Source: Rhizophagus irregularis
Lineage: Eukaryota > Glomeromycota > Glomeromycetes > Glomerales > Glomeraceae
Reading direction: 5' to 3'
Length of the DNA: 64,000 nt
NCBI RefSeq assembly: GCF_026210795.1
Contig: NC_089441.1
Location: 2,294,001 to 2,358,000, forward strand
Shown in pieces: positions 1-60,410 of the stretch. The number at the start of each line of letters is the position of its first letter. Position 1 is the stretch's first letter. Position numbers and translations under genes: made by a program. The notes beneath the pieces were generated by a model that did not search any database, had not been told where the DNA came from, and saw only the letters and a program-made list of their open reading frames with translations.

Positions 1-3000
1 CCCCTTCTAATTCACGACCTCATGATGGTGTAGGTCTTTTACTTCGCCACCCTTTACATAAACATGTTCAGAAGATCGATCCTTGGAAAGGTCGTTTGTT
101 AAAACTAGATCTTTTCTTTCATCAAACAAAAATTTCTATTATTTCTGTTTATATTCTTCCTTATCATTCTATTCATTACAAAGAACGTGATGCTATTTTT
201 GCCCAACTTAATTTATGGCTTGATAAAGCCCGTTCTAATAATTATCATTAAGGTTGCCGGGTGAAACTCATTTGGGATTTGTCTAAACGTCTAAACTTCA
301 GTTTCGCCAACTTTTTAATAAGAGTTTATTATAGTTTTGTCATTACTATAAGTTTCGTCAGTTTCGTCATTTCTCTAAGTTTCGCTAATTTTTTATTAAG
401 ATTTTAATATAGTTTCGCCAAGTTTTACCTTTTCGACAGTTTCAACTATTTGCTAAACTACCTAGTTTCACCCAGCAACCTTAATTATCATGTAGTTATC
501 CTTGGTGATTTTAATGCAGATGAAACTTCACATTCACATCTTCCTCAACATCATTTGAAAATTTTACGATCACTTTCTTCTCAATATTTTACGGATCATC
601 AATCCCATATCTCTTCAATTTCAGGTCCAAGTCCTACCTTCTATCATCATAATGGTTCTTCAAGGCTTGATTATATTTGGTCATTCCCTGGATTTCCTGC
701 TCCTGGTCTTTTCTCTCAAGTCGAAACTTGCCCTAAGCTGCATGATAATCAATTTACTGATCACTGAGTACTTACAACGGCTTTTGATTTTAGCTCTTGT
801 TTCGCTACTCTAGCTAAAGCTAGAATAAAACAAAAAAGCGAACAACGCACCATTTTTCTTTATAAAAACTTGCACGAAGATACTTGGGATAAATTTTCTA
901 ATAAAGTAAACTCACGTCTTGAGTTGTACTTGTCCACACATTATCCCTCCATATCTTCACTTTCAGCCCTTTTTCTGGATAAACTTTGGCACGCTCTTAA
1001 ACGTTCTATTCTTGGTGGTGCCATTGACTCTTTACCATTTCAACATGTATCTAATACTCACCATCATAAATATCCTCCCGAGCTTACCATGCTTATTGCT
1101 ATCAACAAATTCTTGGATAGATTATTGTTTAAATTGACCTCATCTAGGCCTAGTCGTCCTGCTCAAATTTCACAAATGATTAATTCTTTACCTACCCAAT
1201 TAATCCTCCTTAAATCTCTTTTAACAGATTATACTATACCTTCTTATAGTACAACGCTAATTTCCACTTTTGTCAAATTTTTACGTTCACAAAAGGCTTT
1301 GGTCTCAGCTTATCTTTCCACGCAATTTCATCAGCATCGTGTAGATTCTATTGAATATTATACTGCTCTTAGAGATGAACATTTCTCTACGTCTCCGGGC
1401 TCCTTTATTTCTTCAGCCCTATCAGTAGAACATCATTCTATCGTTCTTGATAGAGTTTTGGTTGTTATTGATTCCAAACCCACATTACTTACTGATCCTT
1501 CAGATATCAAACAAGCTGCTATTAAACACTTCCAATCGGTTATTACTCCTCCTTTGGTCCAGTATTCTTCCACGGATTCATTTCCTTCACGATGGCAAAG
1601 AGCATATTCTCCTCTTTCTGATATTGATTCGTCATTATATAATTCGGTCATGTCTCCTATTCTGGAAGATGAATGGAAGAACATTCTCAATTCTATGCCT
1701 AACAACAAAGCCTCTGGTCCTTCCAAAATTTCTTATGAAATGCTCAAACATTTAACTGGCGAAGCTTTTAATTTATCCCTTGTCTTAGCTAACGCCTGCC
1801 TCATTCATGGAGATGTTCCTGCTGATTGGCGTGAAGCGCTTGTTTATCCCATTCCAAAGCCTCATGAATTTGATGCACAATTAAAGAATACGCGACCTAT
1901 CACTTTATTGGAAACCGTTCGGAAATGTGTGGTTAAGGTCGTTACAATTTGGCTTTCAAAGATCCTAGCTGACAATCAAGTGCTCCAAGGTGGTAATTTT
2001 GCTGGATTACCAGGTGGTTCTACTGATATTCCTATTAAGATGCTTGATGCTATTATTCATCAACGATGTTTTGACAAAACTGATGACCAAGAGTTATGGA
2101 TTGTTTCTCAGGACATTTCTAAGGCCTTTGACTCAATTGACTTGAATATGCTCAGACTAGCTTTAATTCGTCTACACATACCATCTTTACTGATCAAATT
2201 TATCATTAATCTTTTTACAAGACGTAATAATAAAATTATTAACCATCATGGTGATACTTCTGGATATAGAGTTAGAATTGGTATTGACCAGGGTGAAATC
2301 ATTTCTCCATTATTATGGGTTATTTACTTGGATCCTTTGCTTACCACACTTAATCGAGATGCTTGTGATTCTTTTATTTTGAAATCTTCTGCATTATTGG
2401 ATTATTCTCCAATTGAATATGAACAATATAATCTTCCTGTTTCGCATATTACATTTATGGATGATTCTACTTTGATTGCTTCATCTAAACGAGGAATTGA
2501 AGATCGCCTTTCCATTACTGCTGAATTCTATACTTTAAATAATACTCAAGCGAATTCTGTAAAATACATCCTTCTTTCTTCTGAACAATTTTCCCAAACT
2601 ATAGTGTTTGACCTTTTCCCATCCCCCTTAATCCCTATTTGTTCCCTCACATTGAAGGCGTTAGCTTTATCTAAATCTTTCCGTTTTTTAGGTGTCTGGT
2701 TTTGTCTTTCAGCTTCCTCTCGTTTTGTTCATGATCAATGTACTTCCATGGTTAAAGACATGGCTACTCTACTCAGTCCTAAAAAGCTTTTGGCACAACA
2801 TGTGGCCTATCTTTATAACGTTGTCTTACTCCCAAGGCTAGAATTTCGCCTTCAAACCACCTTATTTGCTGAATCTACCATTAATCGCATGGTTTCTCCA
2901 ATGCTCTCTCTTATTCGACAGAAGGCTGGTTTGGCCTCAGTCACTCCTCTTTCCGCGCTTTTCACACTGTTGCCATTCTCTATCCAACAAGCGTTTGGTC

Positions 3001-3578
3001 AATTCCTATCATTTCATGTGGCTTCATGGCAAAGAATTTTTTCTCACCCTTTATACAAGCTTTTTGCCAACTGTATGATTACTTATCTTCAAGGATTTTT
3101 GGATTGTGATGCCTGTCCTTCTACTATTGATTTAGAACCATGGTCCCATACATTTTCCTTGCGAACACATTCTTTGTTCAATTTTTTATTATTCTCTTCT
3201 CGATTAAATATCACGTGGTCTTTATTGTTCCGACCTCCGAGAAAGGATCTACGTCCGGCAATTTCACTCCGTTCTATTTTACCGAAAGATTTATTTACTT
3301 CCATGAATAATGTTCAAAAAAATTTCTGCACTCGTTTTCTTGCTCAATTGATTACTCCGTGCAGCTCTCGCCTTCTTTCATGGAAAGATTTACGCTTTCT
3401 TAAACGAGTATCGAACAAAGGATCTGTACCTGCTTGGTTTAATTATTTATTTAATCTTATTGTTATTCCTAATTCCCCTTCTTTGTTTGTTTTATCACAA
3501 TTTAGAATTCCAATTTCCCATACTGTAGCCCTTGTTTCTAGTATAGATATTAGTCGAAATTATTGGTTTAATCCTTAA
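1..3578 (+). pseudogene. LINE A ORF2, endonuclease C-terminal half plus reverse transcriptase
   Basis: The EEP endonuclease part shows GDFNAD and SRLDYIW, and its catalytic TDH is followed at 765 by TGA where copy B has an arginine codon. The reverse transcriptase runs open from about 870 to 3578. It shows DWREALVYPIPKP, TRPITLLETVRK, the motif A region SQDISKAFDSI, the motif B region IDQGEIISPLLW and the motif C region TFMDDSTLI. FMDD replaces the common YADD but keeps both aspartates. The frame ends at 3576 in TAA where copy B has CAA (glutamine). Without that stop it would run on into RNase H. The enzyme would reverse-transcribe element RNA at a nicked target; this copy cannot make the full protein. 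Confidence 0.93.
249..483 (+). mobile_element. hAT-like MITE, 235 bp, in LINE A endonuclease
   Basis: The ends are TAAGGTTGCCGGGTGAAACT and, read inward from the other side, TAAGGTTGCTGGGTGAAACT, a 20-bp inverted repeat with one mismatch. It is flanked by a perfect 8-bp duplication ATTATCAT (241-248 and 484-491). Removing the element and one duplicate restores the sequence of copy B at this site. Termini of the form TARNG and 8-bp duplications are the hAT signature. The interior repeats GTTTCGCCAA-like words in both orientations and has no coding capacity. A related element lies at 60167-60410. Strand is arbitrary. Confidence 0.95.
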
Positions 3579-6285
3579 TGGGCTATTTCTTTTAATCGCA
3601 ATACTAACTCTTTCCTTGTTGGCCGTGTGATTACCACTTATCCTACTCCACGTAATGAAGCTCTTATTTCACATTGGATTGCGACTTCGTTCGATGATTT
3701 GCTTTCTGAATTTACTGCATGCCGCGGATGTGCCTCTGCTATCTCGCGATCCTCTACTTCTAAGACTTTACTTAAACGATGCCCTTCTGAAGGATGTTTT
3801 TCTTATGTTCCGTTATCAAGTTTGATCCGCTATCCTACAAAACCTCGTACTTATATATATGCGGACACTTGTTCAGTTTCACTCTCTGCCTCGTTAAGAT
3901 ATGCCAAATCTCTTTTGTTGTTTCATCTTTTTGCTCCGGTTCGGCTACCTCCTATGCTTAACCATGTGTCTGGGATTTCTGATATCCAACTTCCTTCTTC
4001 GGTGTCTACACTGTATATTGATGGATCCTTCCTCCCTCCTTCTAGTCATCCGATATCCTCGATGGCTTATGCATGGACTGCTATAGATCCTGACGGATTT
4101 ATTTTGGAATCTCACTATAATATTATTTCTTCCATTTTTCCTTCTGCTTTACGTTCAGAAATTTGTGCTTTAATGCATGGATTGGACTCCCTCCCTCGGA
4201 ATTCAAAGATTACTGTCGCCACTGATTGTGCTCAATTGCTTTCTTTATGGTCTTCGTATGTGAATGCTCCTTTTATTCCTAAATTACTTAAAGAACCTAA
4301 CCACCTTTTGTGGTCTTCCATACGAGCTATCAAGTCAGTAAAAAATCTGGATGTTACCTTAATCAAGGTTCCTGCTCACGCTGACGACCCTTTGAATAAT
4401 CATGTGGATGCTCTAGCCAAAGCCGCTCACACTGATTCATATCTCTCTTCTCGTCCATTGTCAGAATTATTGGCTCCTTGCATTTTACAATTTAATTCTT
4501 TACCTGTAGATATGAATATCCGGAAATTTGTTAGAGATATCTTTGACGCTAAAAGTCTTTTAACTCTTGCTGCATTACCAAGATTTAATTCCTGTTCCCC
4601 AATTTCGGATATCGATTGGGCTTGCACCAAATTTTGTCTTAACAACAATAAGCAATTTGTCTCTCATCGGAATGGCCGTTCCGATTTTTGTAGCTTCCGT
4701 ATCAAATTATTATTAGATATGCTTCCAACGCTTATGTTACGTGAATTTTTGCACATATGATTTCCGATATTATATGGTGATCCGATGAAATTCGGTACAT
4801 TTGTGTACATGTCGATTTCTGGTGTTATGAGACGATTTACGCCGATATATGATTTGTGTATATCGGTTAACTATATTAAAGATATTGATTTTGTTTGATA
4901 GATTTACTTATATATCGTTTTTATAGTTATTTTATTTTATCTAGATAATTTATTTATATTATTTATTTTCTTTATTTGTATTGTTTATATATAAGATTTT
5001 ATTAGAAGTTATTGTAGGGAAATTAGCTCAATAGTAATTAACCGTCTAAAATTATCATTTGTACTTTATTAAAAATGGCTTATAATCGTATTGTAATTGT
5101 ATTGATATATTACGAAATCAATAACCCATCAATAGACATCTATAGATTAGATTTTGCCTTGATGACAGGAAAAAGAGATGACGGTTAGATAAAATAAGAT
5201 ATAAATACACCTTCCGCCAACTCTTTGATAGAGTAGTTACCATATAGCTATTTTTCTGTAGTTATTTTGTCGTTAAATATCTTTAAGATATATTTCCTAT
5301 CCCTTTCTGTCACTTTTTATCACTTTGTTGTAAAGATCCGAATTTACACCTGTTTAATAAAATCGTTATATTTGGTCAATATTACACGTTGTTTCTAACA
5401 GTCATATAACAGTTGTTGTTATAACCATTGCGTATTTTCATTTATCGTATTTATAGTGTTTACCTTGACAATTCTTAACGAACAATACCGGAAGTACCTT
5501 GGATAGGTAGTATTGAGTAAGAATTTTGTTGGTATTCGTGTAGTTATACGATATAAGTCATCCGCCATTCGTCCCTTAATTACCGTCATTATTTGGTAAC
5601 ACTTACAACTCTCCAGAGACGAAAACCTCATCTTTATAATCCGAGTTGGCTTTGTCCTCAATGTAACTCTTCTCCTGAAACCTTAGACCACTTGTGGACT
5701 TGTCCTTATATTTTACCAGAATTTAGCCCTTTAACAACTTTTAAAGCACTTTTACTGGATCTTCGGACTACCTATCTTGATAAATTTCTTTCAGAGTCAT
5801 CTTTACTACCTTTACCGGATTCCTTCGCTGCTGATTTTAAAACTATTGATTGTTGGGATTGTGACCCTCCTTCAATTTCCTGTCTGAGACTTGCACGTGG
5901 ACTTATACCGACATCTCTTACAGAATTTCTTGGAAATTATTTTTCATCATTTACCATTTGGTCTATCTTAGATACACCTTTACACGACTTTCATTTTGAC
6001 CTTTATGTACAAATCTGGTTGTGCCATTCCATTTTCTTTCATCATTGGGAATCAGCTCAAGACATTACAAAAAAAATGAAATCGTCAGCTCTTGGGCCTT
6101 CTTCTATTTCTCAACTTTCTTCTTACATTCTTCCTGATTCTTTGACACCTTCCTTGGCGACAGTTTTCTCAGATTCCTGGGTTTCTTGGGTTTCCTCTTC
6201 TATAATTCGTGGTAGATCTTGGATCTCGCACTTGGATTTTTGGCGCCGCTTAACAGTTCAGCCTCTACTTAGGATTTCTTTTTGA
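3579..6285 (+). pseudogene. LINE A ORF2, RNase H and C-terminal zinc finger, split by insertion
   Basis: A CRGC...C region is followed by an RNase H fold with the acidic residues in order: TLYIDGSF (D), SEICALMHGLDS (E), ITVATDCAQ (D) and NHVDALAKAA (D). After the insertion at about 4736-5600 the frame resumes with a finger CPQCNSSPETLDHLWTC (C-x2-C-x9-H-x3-C), the zinc finger usual at the end of such LINE proteins. It ends at TGA 6283-6285. RNase H would remove the RNA strand during integration. It is broken by the stop at 3576 and by the insertion. Confidence 0.9.
4736..5600. mobile_element. About 865-bp insertion in LINE A
   Basis: Copy B runs straight through this point, while copy A is interrupted between GATATGCTTCCAAC and ACTTACAACTCTCC. 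The insert begins GTTACGTG and ends GGTAAC, so only five terminal bases (GTTAC/GTAAC) are inverted. The flanks AACGCTTAT and AACACTTAC could be a 9-bp target duplication with two differences. The interior is AT-rich with no convincing frame. Superfamily unknown. Confidence 0.7.
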
Positions 6286-6571
6286 TAACGGATCGGATCT
6301 TAGGGCATGCTGGATAGTTGACTCACACTGGCCTTCGGATAAAGTTGGGGTATGCGATTCTGTAATAGTTCAGTTTTTCTTTGCTTTAATTTTATTTTAG
6401 TTTAGATTTCTTTACTTGTATGAGTCGTGAAGCTAGTTCTTTTTATTTTTTATGTTTATTTTTCTATATTTCACTTTGTAATATTGTTCGATTTGATTAT
6501 TGTACTCTTCATTTGAAAATTATAATAAAAGATAAAGTCATAAGACTGTTTGCTCATAATCACCAAATATG
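6286..6571 (+). other. LINE A 3' untranslated region
   Basis: This stretch is conserved in copy B (15230-15509), including GGCCTTCGG, the AATAAAAGATAAAG block and the terminal ATAATCACCAAATATG. No poly(A) tail or microsatellite tail follows either copy. The conserved 3' end is presumably what the element's reverse transcriptase recognises (inference). Confidence 0.8.
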
Positions 6572-6711
6572 AGGATCATTGCAACTCTTTCCTGAATTTT
6601 TGAAAATACTAATAAAATTTATTTTTGGAATTTTCGTTCGAAAATTTCTAAGTGCTCGTTCATAATACTAATATTTCCACAGTTGCTTTCCTCTTTACTG
6701 AGCTTTATACT

Positions 6712-8832
6712 ATGACTACACCTCCAGCTCCTTCTGTTATTAACCCGGATATTCCGCCACCACCGCGTCCTGTTATCTCTGCTCCCTCTGGAGACCGACC
6801 TTTGTCTCCCACTAATACCGTTGGCGTACCAAACAAACGTTCGCGTACTGTCTCTGAGGACGCTATGAATGTTGATATATCTTCGCCCTTTGCTCCTGCT
6901 CCCAGCCTTATTTCTACCGTTCCTTCTGGTCTTCCTGTCAACAAAGTCCACATGATTACATCTCCTCAGAATATTACCACTCCTGTTGAAACTGTTGACG
7001 CTTCTATCCATGCTCCCTCTAACACCAGTGGTAAAGGCAAAGCTGTCGCCTTTGATATCCCAGAACGACGACCATCTCCCGATGGTAATGCTGCTGCTAT
7101 CAAATCCGCACCTTCTCGTTATCATGCTGCGGCCTACCTATGCGACGCGCCTGACGCGTTCAAAGCTAAATTCACCACCAATCACTCCATGTGTGACGAA
7201 GTGGATTGTTCACTCTCCCGTTATTCTTCTTATGGCGCTCGCGCACGATGTGAAGGATCAGGCGATAACAAAAAGATCCTTGTCTTCTTTAATGATCAGC
7301 ATGATTATACCGATTGTATCACCTCCCCACGTGCCGACCTCCTCGATTTGGCCTTCAGTCATTATTCCCCTGTAGACGCCAAGCTCAGCGATGAAATGAA
7401 GTCTTTGTTCGTCACTGATATCCCACTTTTCCTAACCGAGACTCAAGTCCGTCAGGCATTTTCCTGATATGGCATTGTAATCAAGTGCAAACTTACTCCT
7501 AGGAAACATTACTATAATGAACATGTCCAGTTTTCCTCCGCGGATGCAGTTACCCAATTCAATGATATTTGGGCGATCATTTGCCTTGGTAATTCTTTAC
7601 GTGTCTGCCCGGCATCTTTTTCAAAATCCCAATGCGATAGCGGCAGAGAACATGTTGTTATCCTCGCCGGCATCCCAAAGAATATTAAAAAAGCTGACCT
7701 GTTGGAAATTGCTACTCAAGTTAACGCTAAGGCCCTTAACGTTCCTCTATCTATCAGTTCCTACAAGCCTAAACCCTATGTATATTTGAATTTTTCCTCA
7801 TTTGAATCTCTTGAAGCTGCCAAAGAAATGACCGTGGCTTTCCGCGGCAAAGGATTAACATGGCACCCTCTCAATGAAGCACAAACTCTATGCCATGTTT
7901 GTGGGCGTCCTGGTTGTTCACCTTCTGTTTGTAATCCTCGTTCTACACAAAAAGTGGATGATCGCCTTAACAAACTATATTCACGCTTCAATGCTGGTCC
8001 TTGACGTGGTCGTCAGGATTCATGTCAATCACGTGAAAATTCTAATTCCTGTTCAAGATCGCGATCCAATTCTAGATCCCGCAATAATAATTCCTCTTCT
8101 TCCCGTTCCGACAACAGCAACAATTATACTAACACTTCTCGTCCCAATACTTCTCGAAGTACCAACCGGACCAACAATAATACTAATAATCACAGGAACA
8201 ATGAAAATTCTTCCGGCTCTACTCGACCTCCACATAAAACTCATTCTGTTAGTTCCACACCACCTACTTCTCCATCTGACAATCCTGCCCATACACTTCC
8301 TCAATATATTATTGATGATTTAAAGACGCAGATCAAAGAGATCGCTAACACTCTACGTACTCTAAAGGAAACTGTTTCTTGGATGAATGATACTATCACG
8401 TCCCATGAGTATAGGCTATCTGAGCTTGAATCAATGATGAATTATGACAACCCTGGTGACTCTGATTCGTATCCGCCTCGTGATGATCATGAAATTCAAA
8501 ATCATTCTTATGATAATGGATGGGATGATGCCCCAACCCAAGACATGAATTCTGGATTCAATCTTCCTCCCCATACTTCCCCTTTTCTCATGGACACTTC
8601 TCCTGATGCTTTTTTCTCAGCTCTGGATCTTAATTCCGTCTTATCAAGAAGACATGTCCCGTTACCTAACTCCCGACCTACTATTATTACTCCTGATGCT
8701 AATACTTCCCGTTTGCAATCGGAGATTTTTAATGTCACCAATACACAAAAGAATCTTTCTGCCCAACTTGGTTCGATTATGGAAAAATTGGACTCCTTCT
8801 CTCCTTCAAAACCCTCCCCTTCCAATGATTGA
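6712..8832 (+). pseudogene. LINE B ORF1, RRM-type nucleic-acid-binding protein
   Basis: The frame opens with MTTPPAPSVINPDIPPPPRP, a proline/serine-rich disordered head. Around residue 235 it becomes RRM-like: LFVTDIPLFLTETQVRQAF with an RNP1-like YYNEHVQFSSADA. A second alpha/beta segment follows (YVYLNFSSFESLEAAKEM), then a zinc knuckle CHVCGRPGCSPSVC, an Arg/Ser/Asn-rich tract and a short coiled coil (DDLKTQIKEIANTLRTLKE). TGA codons at 7465 and 8002 interrupt it; both fit CGA to TGA. ORF1 proteins coat element RNA; here that role is inferred from the domain order. The start is the first ATG of the open frame after the leader; an upstream in-frame ATG at 6652 is possible. Confidence 0.85.
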
Positions 8833-11800
8833 ACACCAATTTATATCGAATGCTTCACAGGGATCTCACCCCCCTGATAGTGCGCTACTTAATATTAATA
8901 GTCCTAATAACTCTCCTTCTTCCTTTTCCCCTCTTATTAATTTTGGACAAATCAATGTTAATGGTTTGTATTCCCTGTTCGTCAGCTGCATTTGTTAAAT
9001 TATTTTCTCCATTCTTCTTTTGGCGTTTTATCTTTAAATGATACTCGTCTTACTTCTTCTAGTGCTAAATTTATTTATCAAACTGAACACTCCCAATATA
9101 ATTTTAAGTCTTATTGGGCTCCTTCCCCTTCTAATTCACGACCTCATGATGGTATTGGTCTTTTACTTCGCCATCCTTTACATAAACATGTTCAGAAGAT
9201 TGATCCTTGGAAAGGTCGTCTTTTAAAATTAGATCTTTTCTTTCATCAAACAAAAATTTCTATTATTTCCGTTTATATTCCTCCTTATCATTCAATACAT
9301 TATAAAGAACGTGATTTTATTTTTGCACAACTTAATTTATGGCTTGATAAAACCCGCACTAATAACTATCACGTAGTCATTCTTGGTGATTTTAATGCAG
9401 ATGAAATTTCACATTCACATCTTCCTCAACATCATTTGAAAATTTTACGATCATTTTCTTCTCGATATTTTATGAATCATCAATCCCACATCTCTTCACT
9501 TGCAGGTCCTAGTCCTACCTTTTATCATCAAAATGGTTCTTCAAGACTTGATTATATTTGGTCATCCCCTGGATTTCCTGCTCCCGGCCTTTTCTCTCAT
9601 GTTGAATCTTGTCCTAAGTTGAATGATAATCAATTTACTGATCACCGTGTCCTCTTTACAGCCTTCGACTTTAGCTCTTGTTTCGCTACTTTGGCCAAAG
9701 CCAGATTAAAGCAGAAAAGCGAACAACACACCATCTTTCTTTACAAGAATTTAAAAGAAGATATTTGGGAGACATTTTCCAATGAAGTAAACTCACGTCT
9801 TGAGTTGTATTTGACCACACACCATCCCTCCATATCTTCACTTTCAGCCCTTCCTTTGGATAAACTTTGGCACGCTGTTAAACGTTCTATTCTTGGTGGT
9901 GCCATTGATTCTTTACCATTTCAACATGTATCCAATACTCACCATCATAAATATCCTCCCGAGCTTACCAAGCTTATTGCTATCAACAAATTTTTGGATA
10001 GATTATTGTTTAAATTGACCTCATCTAGGCCTAGTCGTCCTGCTCAAATTTCACAATTGGTTAATTCTTTACCTACACAATTAATCCTTCTTGAATCTCT
10101 TTTAACAGATTATACTATACCTTCTTATAGTACCACACCACTTCCTACTTTTGTCAAATTTTTGCGTTCACAAAAAGCTTTGGTCTCTGCTTATCTTTCC
10201 ACGCAATTTAATCAACATCGTGTAGATTCCATTGAATATTATACTGCTCTTAGAGATGAACATTTCTCTACGTCTCCGGGCTCCTTTATTTCTTCAGCCC
10301 TATCAGTGGATCATCATTCTATCATTTTTGATAGAGTTTTGGTTGTTATTGACTCCAAACCCACTTTACTTACTGATCTTTCAGATATCAAACAAGCTGC
10401 TATTAAACACTTCCAATCGGTTGTTGCTCCTCCTTTGGTACAATATTCTTCTACGGATTCATTTCCGCCCACGATGGCAAAGAGCATATACTCCTCTTTC
10501 GGATATTGATTCATCGTTATATAATTCGATTATGTCTCCTATTCTGGAAGATGAATGGAAGAACATTCTTAATTCTATGCCTAATAACAAAGCCTCTGAT
10601 CCTTCCAAAATTTTTTATGAGATGCTCAAACATTTAACTGGCGAAGCTTTTAATTTATCCCTTGTTTTAGCTAACGCCTGCCTCATTCATGGAGATATTC
10701 CCGCTGATTGGCGTGAAGTGCTTGTCTATCCCATTCCAAAGCCTCATGAATTTGACGCACAATTAAAGAATACGCGACCTATCACTTTGTTGGAAACTGT
10801 TCAGAAATGTGTGGTTAAGGTCGTTACAATTCGGCTTTCAAAAACCCTAGCTGACAATCAAGTGCTTCAAGGTGGTAATTTTGCTGGATTACCAGGCGGT
10901 TCCACTGATATTCCTATTAAGATGCTTGATGCTATTATTCATCAACGACGTTTTGATAAAACTGATGACCAAGAATTATGGATTGTTTCTCAGGACATTT
11001 CGAAGGCCTTTGACTCGATTGATTTAAACATGCTTAGACTGGCTTTAATCCGTCTACATATACCGTCTTTGTTGATCAAATTTATTATCAACCTTTTCAC
11101 AAGACGTAATAATAAAATTATTACTCACCATGGTGATACTTCTGGATATAGAGTTAGAATTGGTATAGACCAGGGTGAAATTATTTCTCCGTTATTATGG
11201 GTGATTTATTTAGATCCTTTGCTCACAACACTTAATCGAGAAGCTTGTGATCCCTTTATTTTGAAATTCTCTGCTTTATTGGATTATTCCCCGATTGAAT
11301 ATGAACAACATAACCTTCCTGTTTCACATATCACATTTATGGATGACTCTACTTTGATTGCTTCATCTAAACGAGGAATTGAAGATCGCCTTTCCATTAC
11401 TGCTGAATTTTATACTTTAAATAATACTCAAGCTAATTCAGCTAAATATATCCTTCTTTCTTCTGAACAATTTTCTCAAACTATAGTGTTTGATCTTTTC
11501 CCATCTCCTTTAATCCAAACTTGTACCCTTACTTTAAAAGCTTTAGCTTTATCCAAGTCTTTTCGCTTTTTAGGTGTCTGATTTTGCCTTTCAGCTTCTT
11601 CTCGCTTTGTTCATGATCAAAGTACTTCCATGGTCAAAGACATGGCTGCTTTACTCAGTCCTAAGAAACTTTTGGCACAACATGTGGCTTATCTTTATAA
11701 CGTTGTCTTACTTCCAAGGCTAGAATTTCGCCTACAAACCACGTTATTTGCTGAATCCACTATTAACTGCATGGTTTCTCCAATGCTTTCTCTTATTCGA

Positions 11801-12338
11801 CAAAAGGCTGGTTTAGCCTCAGTCACTCCTCTTTCCGCGCTTTTCACGTTGTTGCCGTTCTCTATTCAACAAGCATTTGGTCGATTTTTATCATCCCATG
11901 TGGCTTCATGGCAAAAAATTTTTTCTCACCCTTTACATAAAACCTTTGCCAATTATATGATTACTTACCTCCAAAGTTTTCTAGACTGTAATGCCTGTCC
12001 TTCTACTATTGACTTGGAACCATGGTCCCATATATTTTCCTTGCGAACACATTCTTTGTTTAATTCTTTATTATTCTCTTCTCGATTGAATATCACGTGG
12101 TCTTTGTTATTCCGACCTCCAAGAAAAGATCTATGTCCGGCAATTCCACTCTGGTCGATTTTACCAAAAGACTTATTCACTTCCATGAAAAATGTTCGAA
12201 AAAATTTTTGTACTCGTTTCCTTGCCCAATTGGTTACTCCGTGTGACTCTCGGCTTCTTCCATGAAAAGATTTACGTTTTCTTAAACGAGTTTTGAACAA
12301 AGGATCTGTGCCTGCTTGGTTTACTTATTTATTTAATT
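8825..12338 (+). pseudogene. LINE B ORF2, endonuclease and reverse transcriptase
   Basis: The likely start ATG (8825) lies in ATGATTGA and overlaps the ORF1 stop. The endonuclease shows INVNGL, LSLNDTRL (in place of the usual QET), ISVYIPPY, GDFNAD, SRLDYIW and FTDHRVL. The RT shows the same motifs as copy A, including SQDISKAFDSI and TFMDDSTLI. Damage: frameshifts near 8965-8995, a one-base insertion near 10465 (CCGCCCACG against CCTTCACG in copy A), and TGA for TGG at 11579 and 12263. The frame is then cut by the insertion at 12339. Confidence 0.92.
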
Positions 12339-13271
12339 CATATGGGCTGATTTGTTTACTCTGCATTAAAAGGAGTTATTAAATTGATTTTCATAATTTT
12401 TGTTACTCAAAATTGTTTTGTAATACCAAAAAATCATCTGATTGATGATCACTTGACTAAATAATAAGTTGAACAAAAATTTACATTTGCGAAACTTAAA
12501 TTATTAAATGTAAAAAAGCTGTGAAAAAACCCATTTCACTAATAAAAAACCCATTTCTTATATATATGGAATTTTTAACATATATTATTAAAAAGTAAGT
12601 ATATTTTAATAAAATATAAAGTAAAATAAAAATTTATATAGTCTTAGCAGCTATAAATGTTTATAAAAATATAATAAAAATATCATATAAAAGATGGTAT
12701 CATAATAGATATTTTTAAACAATAAAAATAATTATTTTATGTCGGAGTTTGTATTACTATCTTTAAATGCAAATATATCAAGATTCACTGATCCGTTTTC
12801 TATAATTTTAGGCTCGTTGAAAAGCCCTTGTTCTGGACTTTATAGGCGAAAAAAGAACTCGCCGATTGAATCATTAGATCCAGAGATATTTACATTTAAA
12901 GTTGAGGTACGAACTTTTTAACATGCTTAAATGCAAATATCTTGGGATCCACTAATCCATTTTTTATAAATTTAGGCTCTTTGGAAAGCCCTTGATCTGG
13001 TCTATATGAACGAAAAAAGAGCTTGCCGATTGGATCACTGGATCTGGAGATATTTACGTTTAAAGTTGAAATACAAATTTTTAACATATATAGTAAGTGC
13101 TAAGAATTATATTAATTTAAAAGAAATATTTACCAAATTATAGTATAATAACATTAAATAAAAATTTTTTAATACTCATCCCCAATTTACTGTATATTAT
13201 ATAGTATTTTGTATAATAAAAATGTAATAAAATCAATATTTTAATTAAAGGTAGACAAATCAGCCCATATG
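12339..13271. mobile_element. 933-bp inverted-repeat element in LINE B
   Basis: The insert starts CATATGGGCTGATTTGT and ends ACAAATCAGCCCATATG, a perfect 17-bp inverted repeat. Comparison with LINE A shows it sits between the codons for FN and LVVT of ORF2. Removing it leaves the frame intact, but no clear target duplication longer than a base or two is visible. The interior holds two diverged copies of a roughly 165-bp unit and no gene. Confidence 0.9.
12755..13085. repeat. Two diverged copies of a ~165-bp unit
   Basis: Both units contain the words CTTTAAATGCAAATAT or close variants, TTTAGGCTCKTTGRAAAGCCC, CGAAAAAAGA and GAGATATTTACRTTTAAAGTTGA. The unit carries the ATCACTGGATCTGGAGATAT word that recurs in other elements of this window. 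Short open frames on both strands are by-products of the repeat. Confidence 0.8.
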
Positions 13272-15229
13272 TTAGTTGTTACTTCTAATTCTTCTTCCTT
13301 TTTTCTTTTACCGCAATTTAGAATACCTAATTCCTATACTGTTGCTTCTATCTGTTCTATAGATATTAGTCGAAATTATTTGTTTAATCCACAATGGGCT
13401 ATTTTTTTTAATCGCGATACTAACTCTTTCCTTGTTGGCCGTGTGATCATTACCTATCCTGCTCCGCGAAATGAAGCTCTTATTTCACATTGGATTGCGT
13501 CATCTGCTGATGACTTATTATCAGAATTCACTGCATGCCAAGGTTGTGCCTCTGCTATTCCGCGATCCTTTACTTCCAAAACATTGCTTAAACGATGTCC
13601 CTCTGAAAAGTGCTTCTCTTATGTGCCTTTATCATGTCTTCTCCGTTACCCTACGAAGCCTCGTACTTATATACATGCGGATACTCGTTCGGTCTTACTT
13701 TCCGCTTCATTAGGCTATGCCAAATCTCTTTTATTATTTTATCTTTTTGCTCCAGTTCGGCTACCTCCTATGCTTAACCAAGTGTCTAGGATTTCTGATA
13801 TCCAACTTCCTTCTTCGGTGTCTACACTGTATATTGATGGATCCTTCCTTCCTCCTTCTAGTCATCCAACACCTTCGATGGCTTATGCATGGACTGCTAT
13901 TGATTCTGATAGTTTTATTCTTGAATCTCATTATAATATCATTCCTTCCCTCTTTCCTTCTGCATTGCATTCCGAAATTTTTGCCTTATTGCATGGATTG
14001 GACTCCCTCCCTCGGTATTCCAAGATTACTGTCGCTACTGATTGTGCTCAATTAATTTCCTTATGGTCTATGTATGTGGATGCTTCGTTTATTCCTAAAA
14101 TGCTTAAAGAATTTAACCACCTTCTATGGTCTTCGGCACGAGCTATTATCTCACAAAAGAATCTAAAAGTTTCTTTAATCAAGGTTCCTGCTCACGCTGA
14201 CGATTCTTTGAATAACCATGTTGATGACTTAGCGAAAGCTGCTCATACAGACTCACGTCTTTCCCCTATTCCGCCTGCATTTTTGGCTCCTTGCATTTTA
14301 CAATTTAATTCTTTATTTGTGGATATGAATATCCGGAAATTTATTGGAGATATTTTTGCCGCCAAGAGTCTTTTGACTCTTGCTTTATTACCAAGATTCA
14401 ATCTTAATTCCTCTATTTCAGATATTGATTGGGCTTGTACCAAATTTTGTTTTAATAATAAACAATTACAATCCTCCTATCGAAATGGCCAGTCTGAATT
14501 TTGTGCTTTCCGTATCAAGATTTTATTGGATATGTTCCGACTCTCACAACTCTTCAAAGACGAAAGCCTCATATCTATGATCCGAGTTGGCTCTGTCCTC
14601 AGTGCAACTCCTCTCCTGAGACTTTAGACCACTTATGGACTTGTCCTTATATTTTACCTGAATTTAGTCCTTTTAATACTTTTAAAACACTTCTGCTAGA
14701 CCTTAGAACCGTTTGTCTTGGAAAATTTCTCTCCGCGACTCCTTTGAAATCTTTACTGGACTCCTTTGCTGTGGAATTTACGGCTATGGATTGTTGGGAA
14801 TGTGACCCTCCTTCATATTCTTGTCTGCGACTTACACGTGGACTTATACCGATGTCTCTTACTAGTTTTCTTGGAACATATTTTTCATCATCCACTATTT
14901 GTTCTATTTTTGATACACCTTTACATGATTTTCATTTTGATCTCTACGTACAAATCTGGTTGTGCTGTTCCATTTTCTTTCATCATTGGAAAACAGCTCA
15001 AGGCATTACCAATAAAATGAAATCGTCCGCTATTGGACCTTCTCCTACTTCTCATCATTTCTCGCAAATTTCTCCTGCAATTTCGACACCTTCCTTGGCG
15101 ACAGCTTCCTTGGATTCCTGGGTTTCTTGGGTTTTCTCTTATATAATCCATGGGGGATCTTGGATTTCGCATTTGGATTTTTGGCGCCACTTAACAGTTC
15201 AGCCTCTACTTAGGATTTCTTTTTGGTAA
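13272..15229 (+). pseudogene. LINE B ORF2, RNase H and C-terminal zinc finger
   Basis: The frame continues after the insertion with FNPQWAIFFNRDTNSF, then RNase H: TLYIDGSF, SEIFALLHGLDS, ITVATDCAQ and NHVDDLAKAA. A one-base loss near 14540 shifts it to the frame with QRRKPHIYDPSWLCPQCNSS and the HLWTC finger. It stops at TAA 15227-15229. This copy keeps the glutamine codon that is a stop in copy A, which shows the two halves belong to one ORF2. Confidence 0.9.
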
Positions 15230-15509
15230 CGGATTGGATCTTTGGATATGCTGGATAGTTGACTCACACTGGCCTTCGGGTAAAGTTGGGGTATGCGTTT
15301 CTGTAATAGTTTAGTTTTTCTTTACTTAATTTTATTTTGTTTAGATTTCTTTACTTGTATGAATCGTGAAGCTAGTTTTTTTATTTTTTATGTTTAATTT
15401 TCTATATTTTATTTGTAATATTGTTCGATTTGAGTTTTGTACTTTTCGATTATAAATTTATAATAAAAGATAAAGTCATAAGACTGTTTGCTCATAATCA
15501 CCAAATATG
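15230..15509 (+). other. LINE B 3' untranslated region
   Basis: Closely matches 6286-6571. It ends at CACCAAATATG, directly against the reversed ORF1 of another LINE. Confidence 0.8.
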
Positions 15510-17830
15510 GACTGTCCCAAATGTGTGACTATAAAGAGAGTTGACTGTAGTTCTTTTAACGACTTTGGAGGGGCGTTTTGGTGTAGTCATTACTTTTTTA
15601 CTAAGTATTGTTATATTATTTGTAAGATGTTGTAATATACTATCGTATCTGTCAAGTCTTGATTTGACGTCGGTGATGGACGATTCTAAGGTATCGTAGT
15701 TGTGATTAATATTTGAAATTTTAGTATCTGTATTGGATTTTTCTTCTTCCATCGTCTTAATCTTATTCAATAGCTGTTTGACCTGTAATTCTAATTGTGT
15801 GATTCGTTGATTTGTATCATTATCTGATGATACATGTGGTTGATTTGGATGTGGGGTGTTATACATATGGTCCCTTTTATAGTTATTCATGTCATTGCCT
15901 GTTATATTACGTTGTTGTTGTCCATTACGTGGATATAATAGATTTCCTGATTGTTGTTGATGATTTTGGATTCCTGTTTGCAGTTGTGTACATCTGATGT
16001 TTTGTGGGCTAGTGAATGTGTTATTATTAGAGTTTAGAGAAATTACATGGTTGTACTTGTTTTTTGATTGTTCATTGATCGTGATTTTTTCTTCTTTGCG
16101 ATCTATAAATCTTTTTTTAAAGATTTTTCTGTTATTTTTATCTGTTATAAAGTTTTTATCGTCACATTCATTTGAGGCGTAAAGAGGTGAACCGCATATA
16201 TTGCAAGTTTTAATTGATACGTGTCCTGGAAATATGTGGATTGTGTGTCCTTCAAATATTAAAGAGGCTCCATTTTTTGATCCCTCAGGATAATTTTCAG
16301 GTGTTACGTAGATGTATGCATTTTTCATTGTTGAATTTCGGGTGGTTTGTGTGAATGTACAAGTACGTCCGTAAATGTATTTGATAAGTGGTTCAATATC
16401 TCTAGCAGTGGTATTGAGTGGAAGTCCAGTAACTCTGAAGTATTTGCTGGTACGTTTTTTAAGGACCCCGGATATCTAATATAAAGGTCATAATGGACTT
16501 TTGGCCAAAAACACCCCTTTTTGCTGAAACTCAAAAAATCGTTTTTTGTAAATATCTCAGCATCCAGTAATTCAATTTTAATAAACTTTTTTTTATTTTG
16601 TAGCCCTCATTTAGCTCTACAATTTAAAAAAAAGTTCATCAAAATTGGACCACTGGATGCCGAGATATTTACAAAAAACGATTTTTTGAGCCCCTAAAAA
16701 ATGGGCCAATCTGCCGAAAGTGTGACTTATGACCTGTTTTGGAGATATCCGGGGTCCTGTTTTTTATATTCAGGATTGTCTTGGTTGCCCAGTAAAATTC
16801 TTACTACAAAGTTTTCTATTTCTAGGCTCCAATAATTTTCTTGCATAAAGTAATCGAAAGCTGATTGTTGGTCGAATCGGACTATAAGTTGTTTATAAGC
16901 TGGTTTAATAAAAATAGGACGACCCTGTCTATTTCGATTTGGAATTTTTCTTGGAGATTTTTTAATTTCTTTGTGTTCGATGATGTTGCTTCCTGTTTTA
17001 GTGACAAGATGTTTTAAAAGCATTGATGTATCGTAATTAAATGGTATATCCATAATTTTGATGACGGCCTGATCTAAATGTTCGAATTTTCGTTCGATTA
17101 AGGTGTTTATAGCTGTATTGGTTAATTCATAAATTTTAATTTTTTGAAGACCATTAGGGCTTTTTTCGATATATTGATTTAAGGAGTCATGTGTTCCGAA
17201 GTATATAGTGAAGTATTTGTATGTAGATGTTAAATTAATTTCGAATTTGTATGCATTTGCGTCATTTAAAAATAACGTCTTAAAAGGAGGTTGATAATTT
17301 CGTTGTTTGTCATTTCAGGTTTGAAACTATCATTAGGTATGAATCCTTTGTGTACTTTGTTTAAATCTTGTGATTTATTCTTGAATATGTCATTTAGCAC
17401 AGTAATTTCTATCTGTTCAGGTATATTTGTTTGTGTGGCTGTTTGTGTTTCAGGTGATTTGCCTTTATTAGTGCTAGACTCAATAGGATCTTCATCCATA
17501 AGAGTAAGGTTTTCATCTATTGGTGTTTGCTTGTGTAAATCATTATTATTTAAGTCACGTGATGTGATTTCGATTTCACTGTGAGAGAGGGCGTGAGTAG
17601 AAGAGCTCTCATTAGCTTCGTCCATAGTAGTGTCTACTATTTCGGTATTATTAGTGGTTGAGGATTGTTTTGTTGTTGATTATTGGTCATAGTGATATTC
17701 TTTTTGGAGGAAGAATATGTAAAGTATATGTCTTCTTTGTTAGTAACTGTGTGATAAGATTTTTCAATATTTTTTAAGAATTTTTTTGAAATTTTTTTTC
17801 CTATAGCAAAACTCATATGAATAGGTTCCG
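15498..17830 (-). pseudogene. ORF1 of a second LINE family, truncated
   Basis: Reading on the minus strand: an N-terminal Asn/Gln-rich piece (MTNNQQQNNPQP), an acidic segment (MDEANESSSTHALSHSE), an RRM-like region (KQLIVRFDQQSAFDYFMQ), and SKYFRVTGLPLNTTARDIEP split from it by the miniature element at 16462-16758. Then come a Cys cluster CNICGSPLYASNEC and a coiled coil ITQLELQVKQLLNKIKTMEE. Leaving out the element and one 8-bp duplicate, the frame passes exactly from ...NPEYKK into RTSKYF. One-base shifts lie near 17285 and 17650. Two RRM-like units, a knuckle and a coiled coil match the ORF1 layout of LINE B without close sequence similarity. The ORF2 that should follow is missing; LINE B sits there instead. 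Confidence 0.82.
16462..16758. mobile_element. 297-bp palindromic MITE with 8-bp target duplication
   Basis: The ends read AGGACCCCGGATATCT and, inverted, AGGACCCCGGATATCT. The flanks are GTTTTTTA at 16454-16461 and 16759-16766. Internal arms around TCGTTTTTTGTAAATATCTC and their reverse complement make it nearly one hairpin. The 8-bp duplication fits hAT or a related group, though the first base is not a pyrimidine. Its excision would be precise for the ORF it interrupts. Confidence 0.95.
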
Positions 17831-33240: not shown

Positions 33241-33584
33241 TGCTATGAAAAGTGTGGGAGAGTTTGTTTTGCATGGTAAAACATTTTTTTGGAAGTGATT
33301 ACTCATATTTTTTTGACATCGTGTTCTTTGTTCAAATAAAAAATTTCCGCATGAAACCCATAATTATTAACTGCGAAAATAGGATAAAAAGTTCTGTACT
33401 ATTTCATTATGTAGTAACAATATATTCTAGAGATTGACTACATTTTATAATGGAAAGTTTGTGTAATCATGTGAATGTGTAAGGGGTATCCAGGTAATGC
33501 ATGAGGGTATCTCTTCAGGATGTAAAAATCCTTATCTAGTACACGAATGCAGTGTCCCTTTCACTTCATAGGCAAAGCCCATAT

Positions 33585-34455: not shown

Positions 34456-34522
34456 GCCCATATATTACTAGTTTTGGATTAAACATCATACAAAAAAATT
34501 GTGCGATATTGTCACATTACAC

Positions 34523-40960: not shown

Positions 40961-40984
40961 CTAATTGGTAGGTCATTATGAGTT

Positions 40985-41200: not shown

Positions 41201-42023
41201 AGTTTAGACATTAGTTTAGAATATTAACGGGATTCATGAGTTTTTAGTGCCTTTCATTTTTATTTATATAGAATTGTTAATCGCTAACCCTGGTAAAATA
41301 ACAAAAGACATTCCAAACCTGTTAGTTTTAGTATTATTAAAACAACTACATCATAGAACTGGCAAATTCATTCTCCGATATATTAGTAAAATTTTAAGCG
41401 GCTCATGATAAAGTTAATATCGCCATGCTTTGAACGAGAAACTGGCCCAAGATAATCTCTCACTTTCCAATGTCAAAAAATTAAAAAATACTGACCAACT
41501 CCACAAATTGCTTTATGATTGATTTTTCCCAACCCGAAATTATAATAAAATAAATATTTTATCAAAAATTGTACGCTCGAAACATCCCATTGTTAATAGT
41601 ATTATTATTATCGATCAGTATAGGTTCAGGAATCATGATCAATACCAATGACACTGAAACAAAAGTTTTGATCTATTTAAACTACAAACCTGTTTATTAT
41701 ACTTCTTGAAAAAGTGCCAAGAAATTTTTTATTATTAGTCTTCTCATACATAGTTAATCCTATGAATTGTTATTTGAAACGTACAAAGTACTTTATAAGC
41801 TTTCATTATATTTTTCTTAATTGTACGATCACTGAAAAAATCATGTAATCATCATCAAAAGGTGGTTCACTTTCTTCAGTTTCGTTTTCATTTTCATCAT
41901 TTTCAAATTAGACCGCTGGTCTCTTGGGAAAATGGATTGGCAGTTTTACGGATTTTTGATTTGTCAAAGAATGAGACTTAGGTACTAATAACACGTGAGG
42001 AGTTCGTGAACTGAGTTCAGAAT

Positions 42024-42476
42024 TAGAGATGGGCATGTTATATAACAATATAAAATAACACAATGTTATATAACATATATAACATATATAACAGTTATAT
42101 AACATAAATAACAATGTGTAACAAATATAATACTGGCCAAAAAAATTGTATAGTGACTATAATTCTAGCCAAAATTATATTAAAAAATTTCTGATGTGAT
42201 CAACGAAATAATTTCCTTTTTTGATTCTTGTGTAACAACTGGCAAAGATTTTCTCAATTTTTATTGGGAGACAAAATTTCCTTTTTTGGATTTTGTGTAA
42301 CGTCACGTGATATGTACCGAAATTAGAACTTAATTCCGGCTAACTTAAATTAATTTTGGCCAATTTTGTTATATAATGTTATATATGTTATATATGTTAT
42401 ATAACTAATATTAAAAAATGTTATATATGTTATATATGTTATAAATGTTATATAACGTGTTATATGCCCATCTCTA
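42024..42476. mobile_element. hAT-like MITE, 453 bp
   Basis: Ends TAGAGATGGGCATGTTATAT and (inverted) TAGAGATGGGCATATAACAC are identical for the first 13 bases. The 8-bp duplication TTCAGAAT flanks it (42016-42023 and 42477-42484). The empty site survives in the second segmental copy near 47595 (CTGAGTCCGGAATCATTAAC). GTTATATAAC words crowd both ends. The centre shares AATTTCCTTTTTTGG with the MITE at 19488. Confidence 0.97.
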
Positions 42477-43479
42477 TTCAGAATCATTAACTATTATTCA
42501 TAAAGAGAAATACTAATTAAATTAACCCTGTAAAACGTAATTTCTGGAAACTCGGTGAATATGATACATTTATGAGAAAATAACTTAAGTAACTGGATAA
42601 TTTTCATGTTTGAGGCTATAAACTCCGTGAATATGATACTACATTTAAGGAAATAACATGGAATAAAAAAACATGAATAACTAATTTTTTACTGTATCTC
42701 TAGTAAATTATTATATTTATTTAGATTACCCTGTATAAGCTAATTTTGTGTTGTGTATTGTAACGTATAGTATGTCTCCGTAATTTATTACGGATTGTTA
42801 TCTTAAAATAGATCGGTTTAACCAGTTAAACAATAGGAATGTCTCATGTTAAAATGCTCCATTTTTTATCATTGTTTACGTTAAATTAAGATATAAACTT
42901 TTATGAATATCTTTCCATTCCCTTCGGTAATGGTTTCATGTCTCTAGACACAATAGATGAGGAATAATATGTCAGTATGTCAGCAAATTGGCTTGTTTAA
43001 TGCGCCATTTTGCATCCAATGATCTTAGAAAGATGAAACATAGCTGAGTGATAGACAAAGAGTAATAATACACCAAAACACTAAAATTTTCTGCAGCAGT
43101 GATACTAAAATTATGATAAATTTTAATAAATTTAAAAAATTTTAAAAATATTATTTGTTTACAATATGTTTGTTTATGATCCCAGTGCTTATGGTTTAAT
43201 TGCTTCCAAAGTTTATTTGTACAAGGTAATAGACGTTTTACCACTAACTTCTTTGATACCAAACGCATGTGCATACCAAATACAAGCTTTTAAAGAGAGT
43301 CAGATGTAAACAATTAATTTTTCCATTTAAATTACTAATTAACTATTAATAGACTAATTCAAATTTCTATAACATACCTTTTACAGCATTTTTTTTACAT
43401 ATGTGAATAAAGCAAATGCAGATCTGTTTTTTGAAAATAGTATAATAGAAATTCTTGAAATTGTATTACAATGAATAAT

Positions 43480-46882: not shown

Positions 46883-46899
46883 GTATCAACTTTACACAT

Positions 46900-48519: not shown

Positions 48520-48665
48520 CCACCCCCTTTTTTTGGGGGATTTTTTTTTCTTTTTTTTAAACACGTTTGGTTTTTTTCTTTTTTTTTTGAAACACATTTG
48601 TTTTTTGTTTTTTTTGAAACATGTTTGGTTTTTTTTTCTTTTGTTTTTTTGAAACATGTTTGATA
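48520..48665. repeat. Poly-T / GAAACATGTTT tract, copy 2
   Basis: Counterpart of 43480-43585, expanded, with T runs of 7-10 separated by AAACACGTTTGG and GAAACATGTTTG. The Lys-rich minus-strand frames here are low-complexity by-products. Confidence 0.8.
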
Positions 48666-59649: not shown

Positions 59650-60166
59650 TATGCAACATATTACATCAGTTTTAAAATGTAATCTTATTTATTAGTTATA
59701 ATATAAATAATATAATACAAAATTTATATCTATCTGCAAAAATAAATTTAAATGTAAACTTATCTGGAATGAATATAGGATTACTATAAATTTCATACTA
59801 TATTTATATAACAATTAGTCAATTATTAGTTAATCACTACTTATAATAACAAATAACTCTTTTAATTTGAAAATTCAGTAGAAAAAGCATTCAGTTTATT
59901 TGAATAAATGAACCATAAAAATCATTACTAAAAATATGTACTTCAATAAAATAAAAATAAAAAATTTATTTAAGTTATATATTAAAATAATTAAAGATTA
60001 TTAATTAATTTCAGTATTTTGTAATTTTTGTAATTAATTGTAATTTTAATTTTTTTTTTTTAACTTAATATTTAAGATATTTTAAATACAATTGTACTAA
60101 ATAATAATAATGCAAGAAAAAAATATAGAAATTATAGTAAATCAGTCTTATATTAAATATTAATAA
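59650..60166. other. AT-rich spacer
   Basis: Nothing supported. Confidence 0.4.
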
Positions 60167-60410
60167 TAAGGTTGCTTGCCGAAATCTAGGGGTTTAGGCA
60201 AGATGGCGTTTCGCCAAAAAGCGAAATTCTGCTGAAACTATATTAAAGTTATATTAAAAAACTGGTGAAACTTTAGAGAAAGGCGAAACTGCCAAAACTT
60301 ATTATAAATGCTGAAACTGCCGAAATTCTGCCGAAACTATAATAAATCTATAGTAAAATTTTGATGAAACTAATCGTAGGATTTTGAAGAGGTTTAGACA
60401 AGCAACCTTA
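60167..60410. mobile_element. hAT-like MITE, 244 bp
   Basis: The ends TAAGGTTGCTTGCCGAAATC and (inverted) TAAGGTTGCTTGTCTAAACC share the first 12 bases. A perfect 8-bp duplication ATTAATAA flanks it (60159-60166 and 60411-60418). The interior repeats GCCGAAA, GCTGAAAC and GGCGAAAC words. Same group as 249-483 by its TAAGGTTGCYKG end and GAAAC/GTTTC words. Confidence 0.96.

Follow-up and report, generated by a model that had tools for sequence, protein, structure and literature searches.

We analysed a 64-kb stretch of the genome of the fungus Rhizophagus irregularis (C13:2294001-2358000; hereafter the window, with positions counted from its first nucleotide) and searched for partners of its elements in the same genome (146.7 Mb, 32 contigs). 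This genome, which is low in GC, gave six near-complete and one partial hit to the fungal family Chitin_synth_1 (PF01644). Transposable elements make up about 50% of the R. irregularis genome, and hAT-Ac, hAT-Tag1 and hAT-19 are named in the account of PMC11075540. The window contains seven elements that start with TARNG at both ends (7/7). They are best explained as non-autonomous hAT elements, that is, miniature inverted-repeat transposable elements (MITEs), a set of an already known kind; they measure 235-1316 bp, and 0/14 window open reading frames of at least 180 amino acids overlap any of them. The elements are listed here with their target site duplications (TSDs) and with the short oligomers, or words, that are repeated within them.

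249-483, no strand assigned: hAT-type MITE with TAAGGTTGC ends; TSD ATTATCAT at 241-248 / 484-491; word AGTTTC/GAAACT, 8 copies across the whole element.
19488-19984, no strand assigned: hAT-type MITE with TAGGGATTGGA/TAGAGATTAGA ends; TSD CTGCAGAC at 19480-19487 / 19985-19992; word AATCGATT, 4 copies at the ends.
26129-27065, no strand assigned: hAT-type MITE with TAAGGATGGTC/TAAAGATGGTC ends; TSD ATTACGAC at 26121-26128 / 27066-27073; word GGTCCT, 12 copies, every one within 150 bp of an end.
33585-34455, no strand assigned: hAT-type MITE with TAAAGCTCCGA/TAAAGCTCTGA ends; TSD GCCCATAT at 33577-33584 / 34456-34463; word GGTTC, 13 copies, 11 of them within 150 bp of an end; largely a single long palindrome.
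34523-35838, no strand assigned: TAGAGTTCC-ended element without TSD; word CAGGT, 44 copies in three clusters (both ends and the middle).
42024-42476, no strand assigned: hAT-type MITE with TAGAGATGGGC ends; TSD TTCAGAAT at 42016-42023 / 42477-42484; words GTTATATAAC, 5 copies, and GTTATA, 19 copies.
60167-60410, no strand assigned: hAT-type MITE with TAAGGTTGC ends; TSD ATTAATAA at 60159-60166 / 60411-60418; word GAAACT, 6 copies; member of a high-copy family.

The terminal inverted repeats (TIRs) of hAT elements have the consensus YARNG. The window was scanned for YARNG...CNYTR pairs 80-6000 bp apart that agreed at 8 or more of 11 TIR positions and were flanked by an 8-bp duplication; 20 block shuffles served as control. 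Eleven pairs had duplications with at most one mismatch (shuffles: mean 4.05), and in six of them the duplication was exact (mean 0.15, maximum 1 in the shuffles). The exact pairs were precisely the six elements for which a preliminary description of the window had claimed 8-bp duplications, with the coordinates right, and their TIRs agreed at 9-11 of 11 positions. The seventh, 34523-35838, had been described as matching at its ends only, which is what we found: the termini match, the flanks differ and there is no duplication. It is probably a composite of a MITE family that has an 844-bp copy in locus L012 and a 762-bp copy in locus L013. Its neighbour 33585-34455 lies across a 67-bp gap, and the termini of the two are related (CCGAACAG left, ATGGGTC right) with the words GGTTC and CAGGT, as if they were sister families that had switched the word.

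The window families differ in homogeneity. Scoring the best 40 of 1201 candidates for the 60167-60410 family returned 39 other copies at 96-97% identity over the full 244 bp, pointing to a presumably recent burst, and relatives of 249-483 showed 73-81% identity among the best 40 of 760 candidates. A near-identical copy of 42024-42476 lies at C12:1111987-1112439 beside a different duplication (CATGCAGT), indicating that this family moved recently.

To choose words without bias, we set the most frequent 5-8-mers of each element against the highest counts seen in 300 dinucleotide shuffles, and compared word-to-end distances with 20,000 random placements per element. The copy numbers of GGTCCT (12), CAGGT (44) and GTTATA (14 without overlap, 19 with overlap) were reached by 0% of the shuffles, and CGGTC and TGTTATA stood out in the first and third of these elements. 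The 13 GGTTC copies were reached by 3.7% of shuffles and the 15 copies of CGGTT by 0%, and the four AATCGATT copies by 8.3%, with 0 copies of AATCGATT outside its element within the window. GGTCCT and GGTTC lay nearer the ends than randomly placed copies (p<0.0001 each), as did AATCGATT (p=0.0046) and GTTATATAAC (p=0.0088). The preliminary description, which gave each element a word crowded near its ends, was thus right for these four, but CAGGT clusters in mid-element too. Likewise, the expected drop of word density in the interior holds for GGTCCT, GGTTC, GTTATA and AATCGATT (0/12, 2/13, 0/19 and 0/4 copies more than 150 bp inward) and fails for CAGGT. For the two TAAGGTTGC elements the words GTTTCGCC/GCCGAAAC had been named wrongly; each has only two copies of GTTTCGCC, 249-483 has no GCCGAAAC, and the shuffle-significant word is AGTTTC/GAAACT, whose 8 and 6 copies were reached by 0% of shuffles. 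At other places in the genome there is a related TAAGGTTGC family of 437 bp, in which GCCGAAA is the dominant word.

To look for full-length partners, we searched the genome for the hAT dimerisation domain, which gave 836 candidates, the best 150 of which were scored and listed. Ninety-two of these were inspected: L001-L008 (8 loci, 1.5-kb flanks), L009-L032 (24 loci, 3.9-5.2 kb around) and L053-L112 (60 loci, 1.1 kb downstream). Both ends and an 8-bp duplication surrounded the transposase in 13 of the 24 loci L009-L032 (12 exact; one mismatch in L023), and no convincing end pair was found within the 3.9-5.2 kb stretches of the remaining 11.

Seven of the listed hAT domains have a match to the GGTCCT right end about 2 kb away. 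One such locus, L009, is a 3711-bp element with the duplication CCCGTAGG and an open frame of 651 amino acids that encodes a BED finger and the dimerisation domain. Positions 1-624 of 26129-27065 correspond to L009 948-1572 and positions 624-937 to L009 4339-4658, at 97% identity each; since the window element equals the two ends of L009, it is a plain internal-deletion derivative of this parent. L009 also holds a nested 730-bp MITE (1211-1940; TAGAGTTGCTT / CAGAGTTGCCT ends, duplication CCCACTTG/CCCACTTA), and the deletion cut of 26129-27065 passes through it, leaving this feature in the window:

26392-26752, no strand assigned: left part of the nested 730-bp L009 MITE, with limits computed from the L009 alignment; its palindromic interior resembles 33585-34455.

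A common origin of 26129-27065 and 33585-34455 from their shared interior was considered and dropped on the 26129 side, which is explained by the nested MITE.

Partners were also found for two other words. L011 (2799 bp, duplication CATCACCT) has ends 88% (right) and 81% (left) identical to those of 19488-19984, and L010 has a AATCGATT-type right end (84%) and a 600-residue frame with the dimerisation domain. A genome search with GTTATATAAC ends only, in which all 36 candidates were scored, returned end pairs 3.8 kb apart, L150 (3841 bp, exact duplication GTCACAAT) and L149 (3832 bp, two mismatches in the duplication). GTTATA occurs 27 times in L150 and 26 times in L149, with 25 and 24 copies within 150 bp of an end. 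The BED, DUF659 and hAT dimerisation domains of L149 all score over the cut-off, in separate frames, and DUF659 of L150 lies just below it. The ends of 42024-42476 are 75-90% identical to those of L149/L150. The middles of 42024-42476 and 19488-19984 gave no match to their own partners, and these two are not plain deletion derivatives; they are sandwiches, in which ends akin to those of their own full-length family enclose a middle foreign to it.

The preliminary description had expected full-length partners with the same ends and words; in this genome they exist for GGTCCT, AATCGATT and GTTATATAAC, and were not found for GGTTC, CAGGT and GAAACT in the loci inspected. Its proposal of several distinct hAT transposases, each with its own word, gains support, in that the three partners encode different hAT transposases, which would each bind their own word. 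The direct searches for GGTTC, CAGGT and GAAACT partners, in which the best 40 matches were scored each, were occupied by high-copy MITEs. In L012 and L013, CAGGT ends lie 1.2-1.8 kb from hAT domains, but they belong to MITEs in their own right, one of 844 bp with an exact duplication in L012 and one of 762 bp with one mismatch in L013, and were rejected as partners. Also rejected were the CAGGT stretch of L088, which sits on the end of a different, ATCCG-type element, and the GAAACT stretch beside the hAT domain of L110 (C9:5015684), which is a separate 244-bp MITE flanked by an exact duplication.

The interior of 42024-42476 matches 28 listed genome places that lack its ends, and part of it occurs in 19488-19984. 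This shared segment, the core, is about 120-140 bp long in the alignment, with repeated AAATTTCC-T6-GGAAATTTGTGTAAC boxes (TTTCC-T6-GGAA) and GTGTAACGTCACGTGA at its end. The window holds two copies:

42194-42313, + strand: shared core of about 120 bp, with the 16-mer GTGTAACGTCACGTGA at 42295-42310 and the box AAATTTCCTTTTTTGG at 42274-42289.
19610-19735, + strand: degenerate core copy inside 19488-19984, which matches the 16-mer at best with 5 mismatches.

When up to one mismatch was allowed, the 16-mer was found at 214 genome places (100 listed, all exact) and its reversed control at 0. We sampled 12 of the 28 places found with the 42024 interior (L033-L044) and 36 loci found with the 16-mer (L113-L148; two inverted pairs and 34 single places, taken roughly in list order among the 100 listed). 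In the search for duplications at core loci, returns whose TIRs were poor or whose duplications were AT-rich and due to chance were excluded (L115, L116, L123, L127, L130-L132, L135, L136, L143), as were internal palindromes (L036, L041, L042, L051, L052 and 42024), and the ends of 42024 and L052 were taken from a separate end analysis. The 34 single places yielded 10 exact duplications, and L129 with one mismatch. In all, 19 complete core-bearing elements with exact 8-bp duplications were found, in five classes, which are listed here with two further ones:

Class A: TAAGGTTGC-type ends, word GCCGAAA; 8 complete elements, exact duplications.
Class B: TATAGGTGC-type ends, word TTACGGC; 5 complete elements, exact duplications.
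Class C: TATACTTGC ends, word GGGATGGG; 2 complete elements, exact duplications.
Class D: TAGGGATTGG ends, word AATCGATT; 2 complete elements, exact duplications.
Class E: TAGAGATGGGC ends, word GTTATATAAC; 2 complete elements, exact duplications.
Class F: TAGTGTTCC ends, word ATCCG; one element (L129), one mismatch in the duplication.
Class G: TAAAGATGCTGCC ends; TIRs agree at 15-16 of 16 positions; 8-bp duplication in 0/4 loci.

The four class G loci (L036, L037, L146, L148) have nearly identical 16-bp ends, TAAAGATGCTGCCCGA. Some core-bearing elements are paired within 2-3 kb (C1:3923982/3926637, C12:1110028/1112258 and C14:2059224/2061308; the first two pairs of different end classes), which suggests that such close pairs are commoner than a rough mental estimate would give.

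Eight representatives of the seven classes showed core homology for every class pair, mostly over 79-158 bp at 73-84% identity; the class F core matches five classes over 36-43 bp only. Outside the core there is almost no homology; the exceptions are about 294 bp that A and G have in common and two short matches of D to a single B element. Judged from these alignments, the core is common to MITEs of at least six end/word classes, 42024-42476 and 19488-19984 representing two and at least four further classes the rest. At the 12 loci chosen by the 42024 interior, which are related and non-independent, the exact 16-mer and the box AAATTTCCTTTTTTGG were each retained in 11/12, against a median of 0/12 exact over the 105 possible 16-bp core windows. 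Boxes were counted on a 22-row core alignment drawn from 25 non-redundant cores, leaving out L120, L125 and the second L135 copy, which align only partly. CC[AT]6GG, which we take to be a CArG box as bound by MADS-box factors, is present in 17/22 aligned cores (the whole window has five), and CACGTG in 21/22; however, CACGTG is part of the 16-mer by which 14 of these 22 cores had been selected.

We found hAT-coding partners for core classes B (L151), D and E. Class B ends also flank the 4.09-kb elements L151 and L152, which have exact duplications and 75-91% identity to the class B ends, and in which every TTACGG lies no more than 250 bp from an end; DUF659 of L151 scores over the cut-off, and its BED and dimerisation matches lie below it. 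The core was not found in 17 full-length hAT elements (L149-L152 and the 13 described above), nor, apart from matches of 15-28 bp, in L001-L032 and L053-L112. Thus, the B, D and E ends match full-length elements that lack the core. A role of the core as part of a hAT promoter was rejected for now: in L153 (C9) a core lies upstream of the hAT domain but outside the element (260-2703), and in L022 an upstream 16-mer has 2 mismatches and the rest of the core is absent. A search for known RNAs gave one match up to E=1, mir-1011, at 18 bits versus a gathering score of 60, and this reading was also rejected.

We also examined the words of the 13 full-length elements of L009-L032. Counted inward from the ends in 50-bp steps, word density was 51, 54, 36, 4.6 and 1.5 per kb, then 0 at 250-400 bp and 0.3-0.8 per kb beyond. 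Equal density throughout the interiors, which the preliminary description had named as contrary to its reading, was thus not seen; density falls sharply past about 150-200 bp. On a transposase tree built from C-termini (23 rows), CGGTCC belongs to L009/L018/L020, AATCGA to L011/L029, ATCCG to L024/L025/L026 and also L030, ACCCG to L015, AGTCGA to L016, and AACCG to L023 and L032. The words largely segregate by clade and the matrix is near-diagonal, with off-diagonal counts such as 6 ATCCG in L023, 7 AACCG in L025 and 5 AACCG in L016. Without any choice of word, the 5-mers of the terminal 2 x 150 bp minus the interior were compared with transposase identity; the Mantel r was 0.75 for 13 elements and 0.64 for 12 (without L020), with 0/5000 permutations each. 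End similarity averaged 0.41 in the 14 pairs with at least 35% transposase identity and 0.13 in the 64 less related pairs. End content therefore tracks transposase identity, and the words are not strictly exclusive. In all 13 elements, the terminal 2 x 250 bp had a higher observed/expected CpG ratio than the interior (0.85-2.58 vs 0.12-0.93). Many words hold CpG, so their recognition could be sensitive to methylation; CAGGT, GTTATATAAC, GAAACT and GGGATGGG do not.

Taken as a whole, these results are probably best explained by hAT MITEs whose words are landing arrays of their own transposases and whose core was captured repeatedly between different ends. As known hAT biochemistry suggests, the N-terminal BED zinc finger of each transposase would bind the many word copies in the outer 150 bp or so, which would place the transposase on the TARNG terminus for cutting and for insertion with an 8-bp duplication. 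MITE interiors vary because only the ends are needed. Repeated capture of the core by hAT ends would have occurred through gap repair or template switching, and the core would be retained because its boxes serve the element usefully. Capture is favoured over slow divergence because the ends are as close or closer to their parents (75-91%) than the cores are among themselves (71-79%; five cores from five classes, one representative each, with class D represented by L033, which retains the 16-mer that L051 and 19488 do not). More tentatively, the core might be a portable docking module for host factors, comprising two TTTCC-T6-GGAA boxes and the GTGTAACGTCACGTGA site with its CACGTG E-box, that raises the success of whichever hAT ends enclose it, in which case these MITEs would be modular.

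Several observations weigh against the capture and landing-array explanation. Confinement to the ends was not seen for CAGGT, with 20/44 copies more than 150 bp inside (p=0.12), nor was end clustering of AGTTTC/GAAACT in the 235-244-bp TAAGGTTGC pair (p=0.68 and 0.94). GGTTC, CAGGT and GAAACT partners were not found in the 92 inspected of the 150 listed loci, themselves the best 150 of 836. The best word of each full-length element was picked on the same ends as the density, so the height of the density is inflated; the break near 150 bp was not imposed. Two distant clades (L023, L032) have AACCG as their main word, which is a minor one elsewhere, and end similarity has a minimum of 0.05 among the 14 related pairs and a maximum of 0.47 among the 64 others. 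Part of the correlation between end content and transposase is plain descent of the ends, and agreement of word and clade alone is no proof of binding. The 16-mer has decayed in 19488, L045 and L051 (5, 4 and 2 mismatches). Reliable element ends were not found for 23/34 single core places within 871 bp each, and class G has no 8-bp duplication; its ends would be compatible with a TA duplication, and the core could here be in another superfamily. Finally, an independently mobile core or a common ancestral MITE may underlie the shared core.

The first of these two alternatives, in which the core is a small nested mobile element, or its remnant, inserted independently into several MITE families, appears unlikely, even with more than 200 copies in the genome, a left-edge CACGTGAC site in L122, L126 and L141 that mirrors the right one, and two consecutive cores in L135. 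Complete A, B, E and F elements have the core near the middle and are mostly 435-453 bp long (L119 384, L138 369), and the left edge of the core varies by class, with no flanking duplication visible by eye in the alignments.

Descent of all core MITEs from one ancestral MITE, with ends and words diverged beyond recognition around a conserved core, would account for the similar total length, the central position of the core and the roughly 294 bp around it shared by classes A and G. We regard it as improbable: identity of end to parent (81-88% for 19488/L011, 75-90% for 42024/L149-L150 and 75-91% for class B/L151-L152) matches or exceeds that between cores, so the ends look derived from their parents.

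It is highly improbable that all the MITEs are mobilised via the TARNG termini by a single promiscuous hAT transposase or a small number of them, with words playing no role in specificity; the termini are alike across families, AACCG recurs in distant clades and three words have no partner, but every partner that was found has the word and terminus of its own MITE, and the words sort largely by clade.

The chance is very small that the words are by-products of end decay or duplication (local tandem or foldback) and not protein landing sites, since, strongly palindromic or internally duplicated as 33585-34455 and 34523-35838 are, and despite the spread of CAGGT and GAAACT beyond the ends, words are dense at both ends and halt near 150-200 bp in 13 full-length elements of several clades, ATCCG is retained in L024, L025 and L026 (transposases 42-64% identical), the L025 ends give no alignment to L024 or L026 at E<=1e-4 (L024 and L026 share 80 bp at one end), and the transposase binds such words in Ac, Herves and Hermes (PMC3260210, PMC3143072, PMC10368747).

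Landing arrays of this kind have close counterparts. In maize Ac/Ds, the transposase binds the subterminal hexamer AAACGG, and the work on Ds1, Ds2 and Ds-l4 describes filler sequence in Ds and one common filler in Ds1 (PMC3260210). Our elements resemble that system in their 8-bp duplications, short TIRs, subterminal words, internal-deletion derivatives and short elements with unrelated filler; they differ in that Ac/Ds, as described there, has one transposase and one word, whereas many words occur here in one genome and a filler-like core spans classes. The Herves transposase recognises a short repeated subterminal motif, and the authors of that study state that the regions bound are not the same from one hAT element to another, which ensures specificity (PMC3143072); in the work on Tgf2, subterminal repeats are named as a feature that defines the superfamily (PMC4890040). 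Those are single animal elements with binding shown, unlike the present set of families in one fungus, in which binding is inferred. In structural work on one element, Hermes, BED zinc fingers bind several left-end subterminal repeats and the right end is unbound by BED domains (PMC10368747), whereas the words here are dense at both ends. hAT-derived BED proteins, one of them from R. irregularis, have distinct motifs, usually with CGG and some AT-rich, and the motifs of hAT-encoded ones match their own subterminal regions (PMC8097297); most of our words hold CpG and one is AT-only, but proteins were measured there and words are read from the ends here. Private subterminal words per hAT family are thus already published (PMC3143072, PMC8097297), and the shared core would be the new part. 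A MITE core shared across end classes was not found among the titles and abstracts listed in searches of open-access literature, with most subscription papers outside it.

CORE-SINEs and other families of short interspersed nuclear elements (SINEs) have a conserved middle segment and unrelated ends. The core MITEs are like them in their shared centre and unlike them in that SINEs are retrotransposons and MITEs move by cut-and-paste. If the capture explanation is true, MITE middles can be more than inert filler, a single conserved segment having come to lie between the ends of several hAT families. Should the core also be a docking module, transposase-specific, interchangeable ends would surround a common host-facing centre, a cut-and-paste counterpart of the shared central domain of SINEs. 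The core makes it testable whether host factors, beyond the transposase, decide which MITEs multiply, and the panel of hAT transposases with their words in one genome makes a recognition code of BED zinc fingers directly testable.

Apart from the seven elements, the window contains at 870-16328 open reading frames like those of long interspersed nuclear elements, comprising one reverse transcriptase, one endonuclease and two RNase H, apparently from more than one copy in a row.

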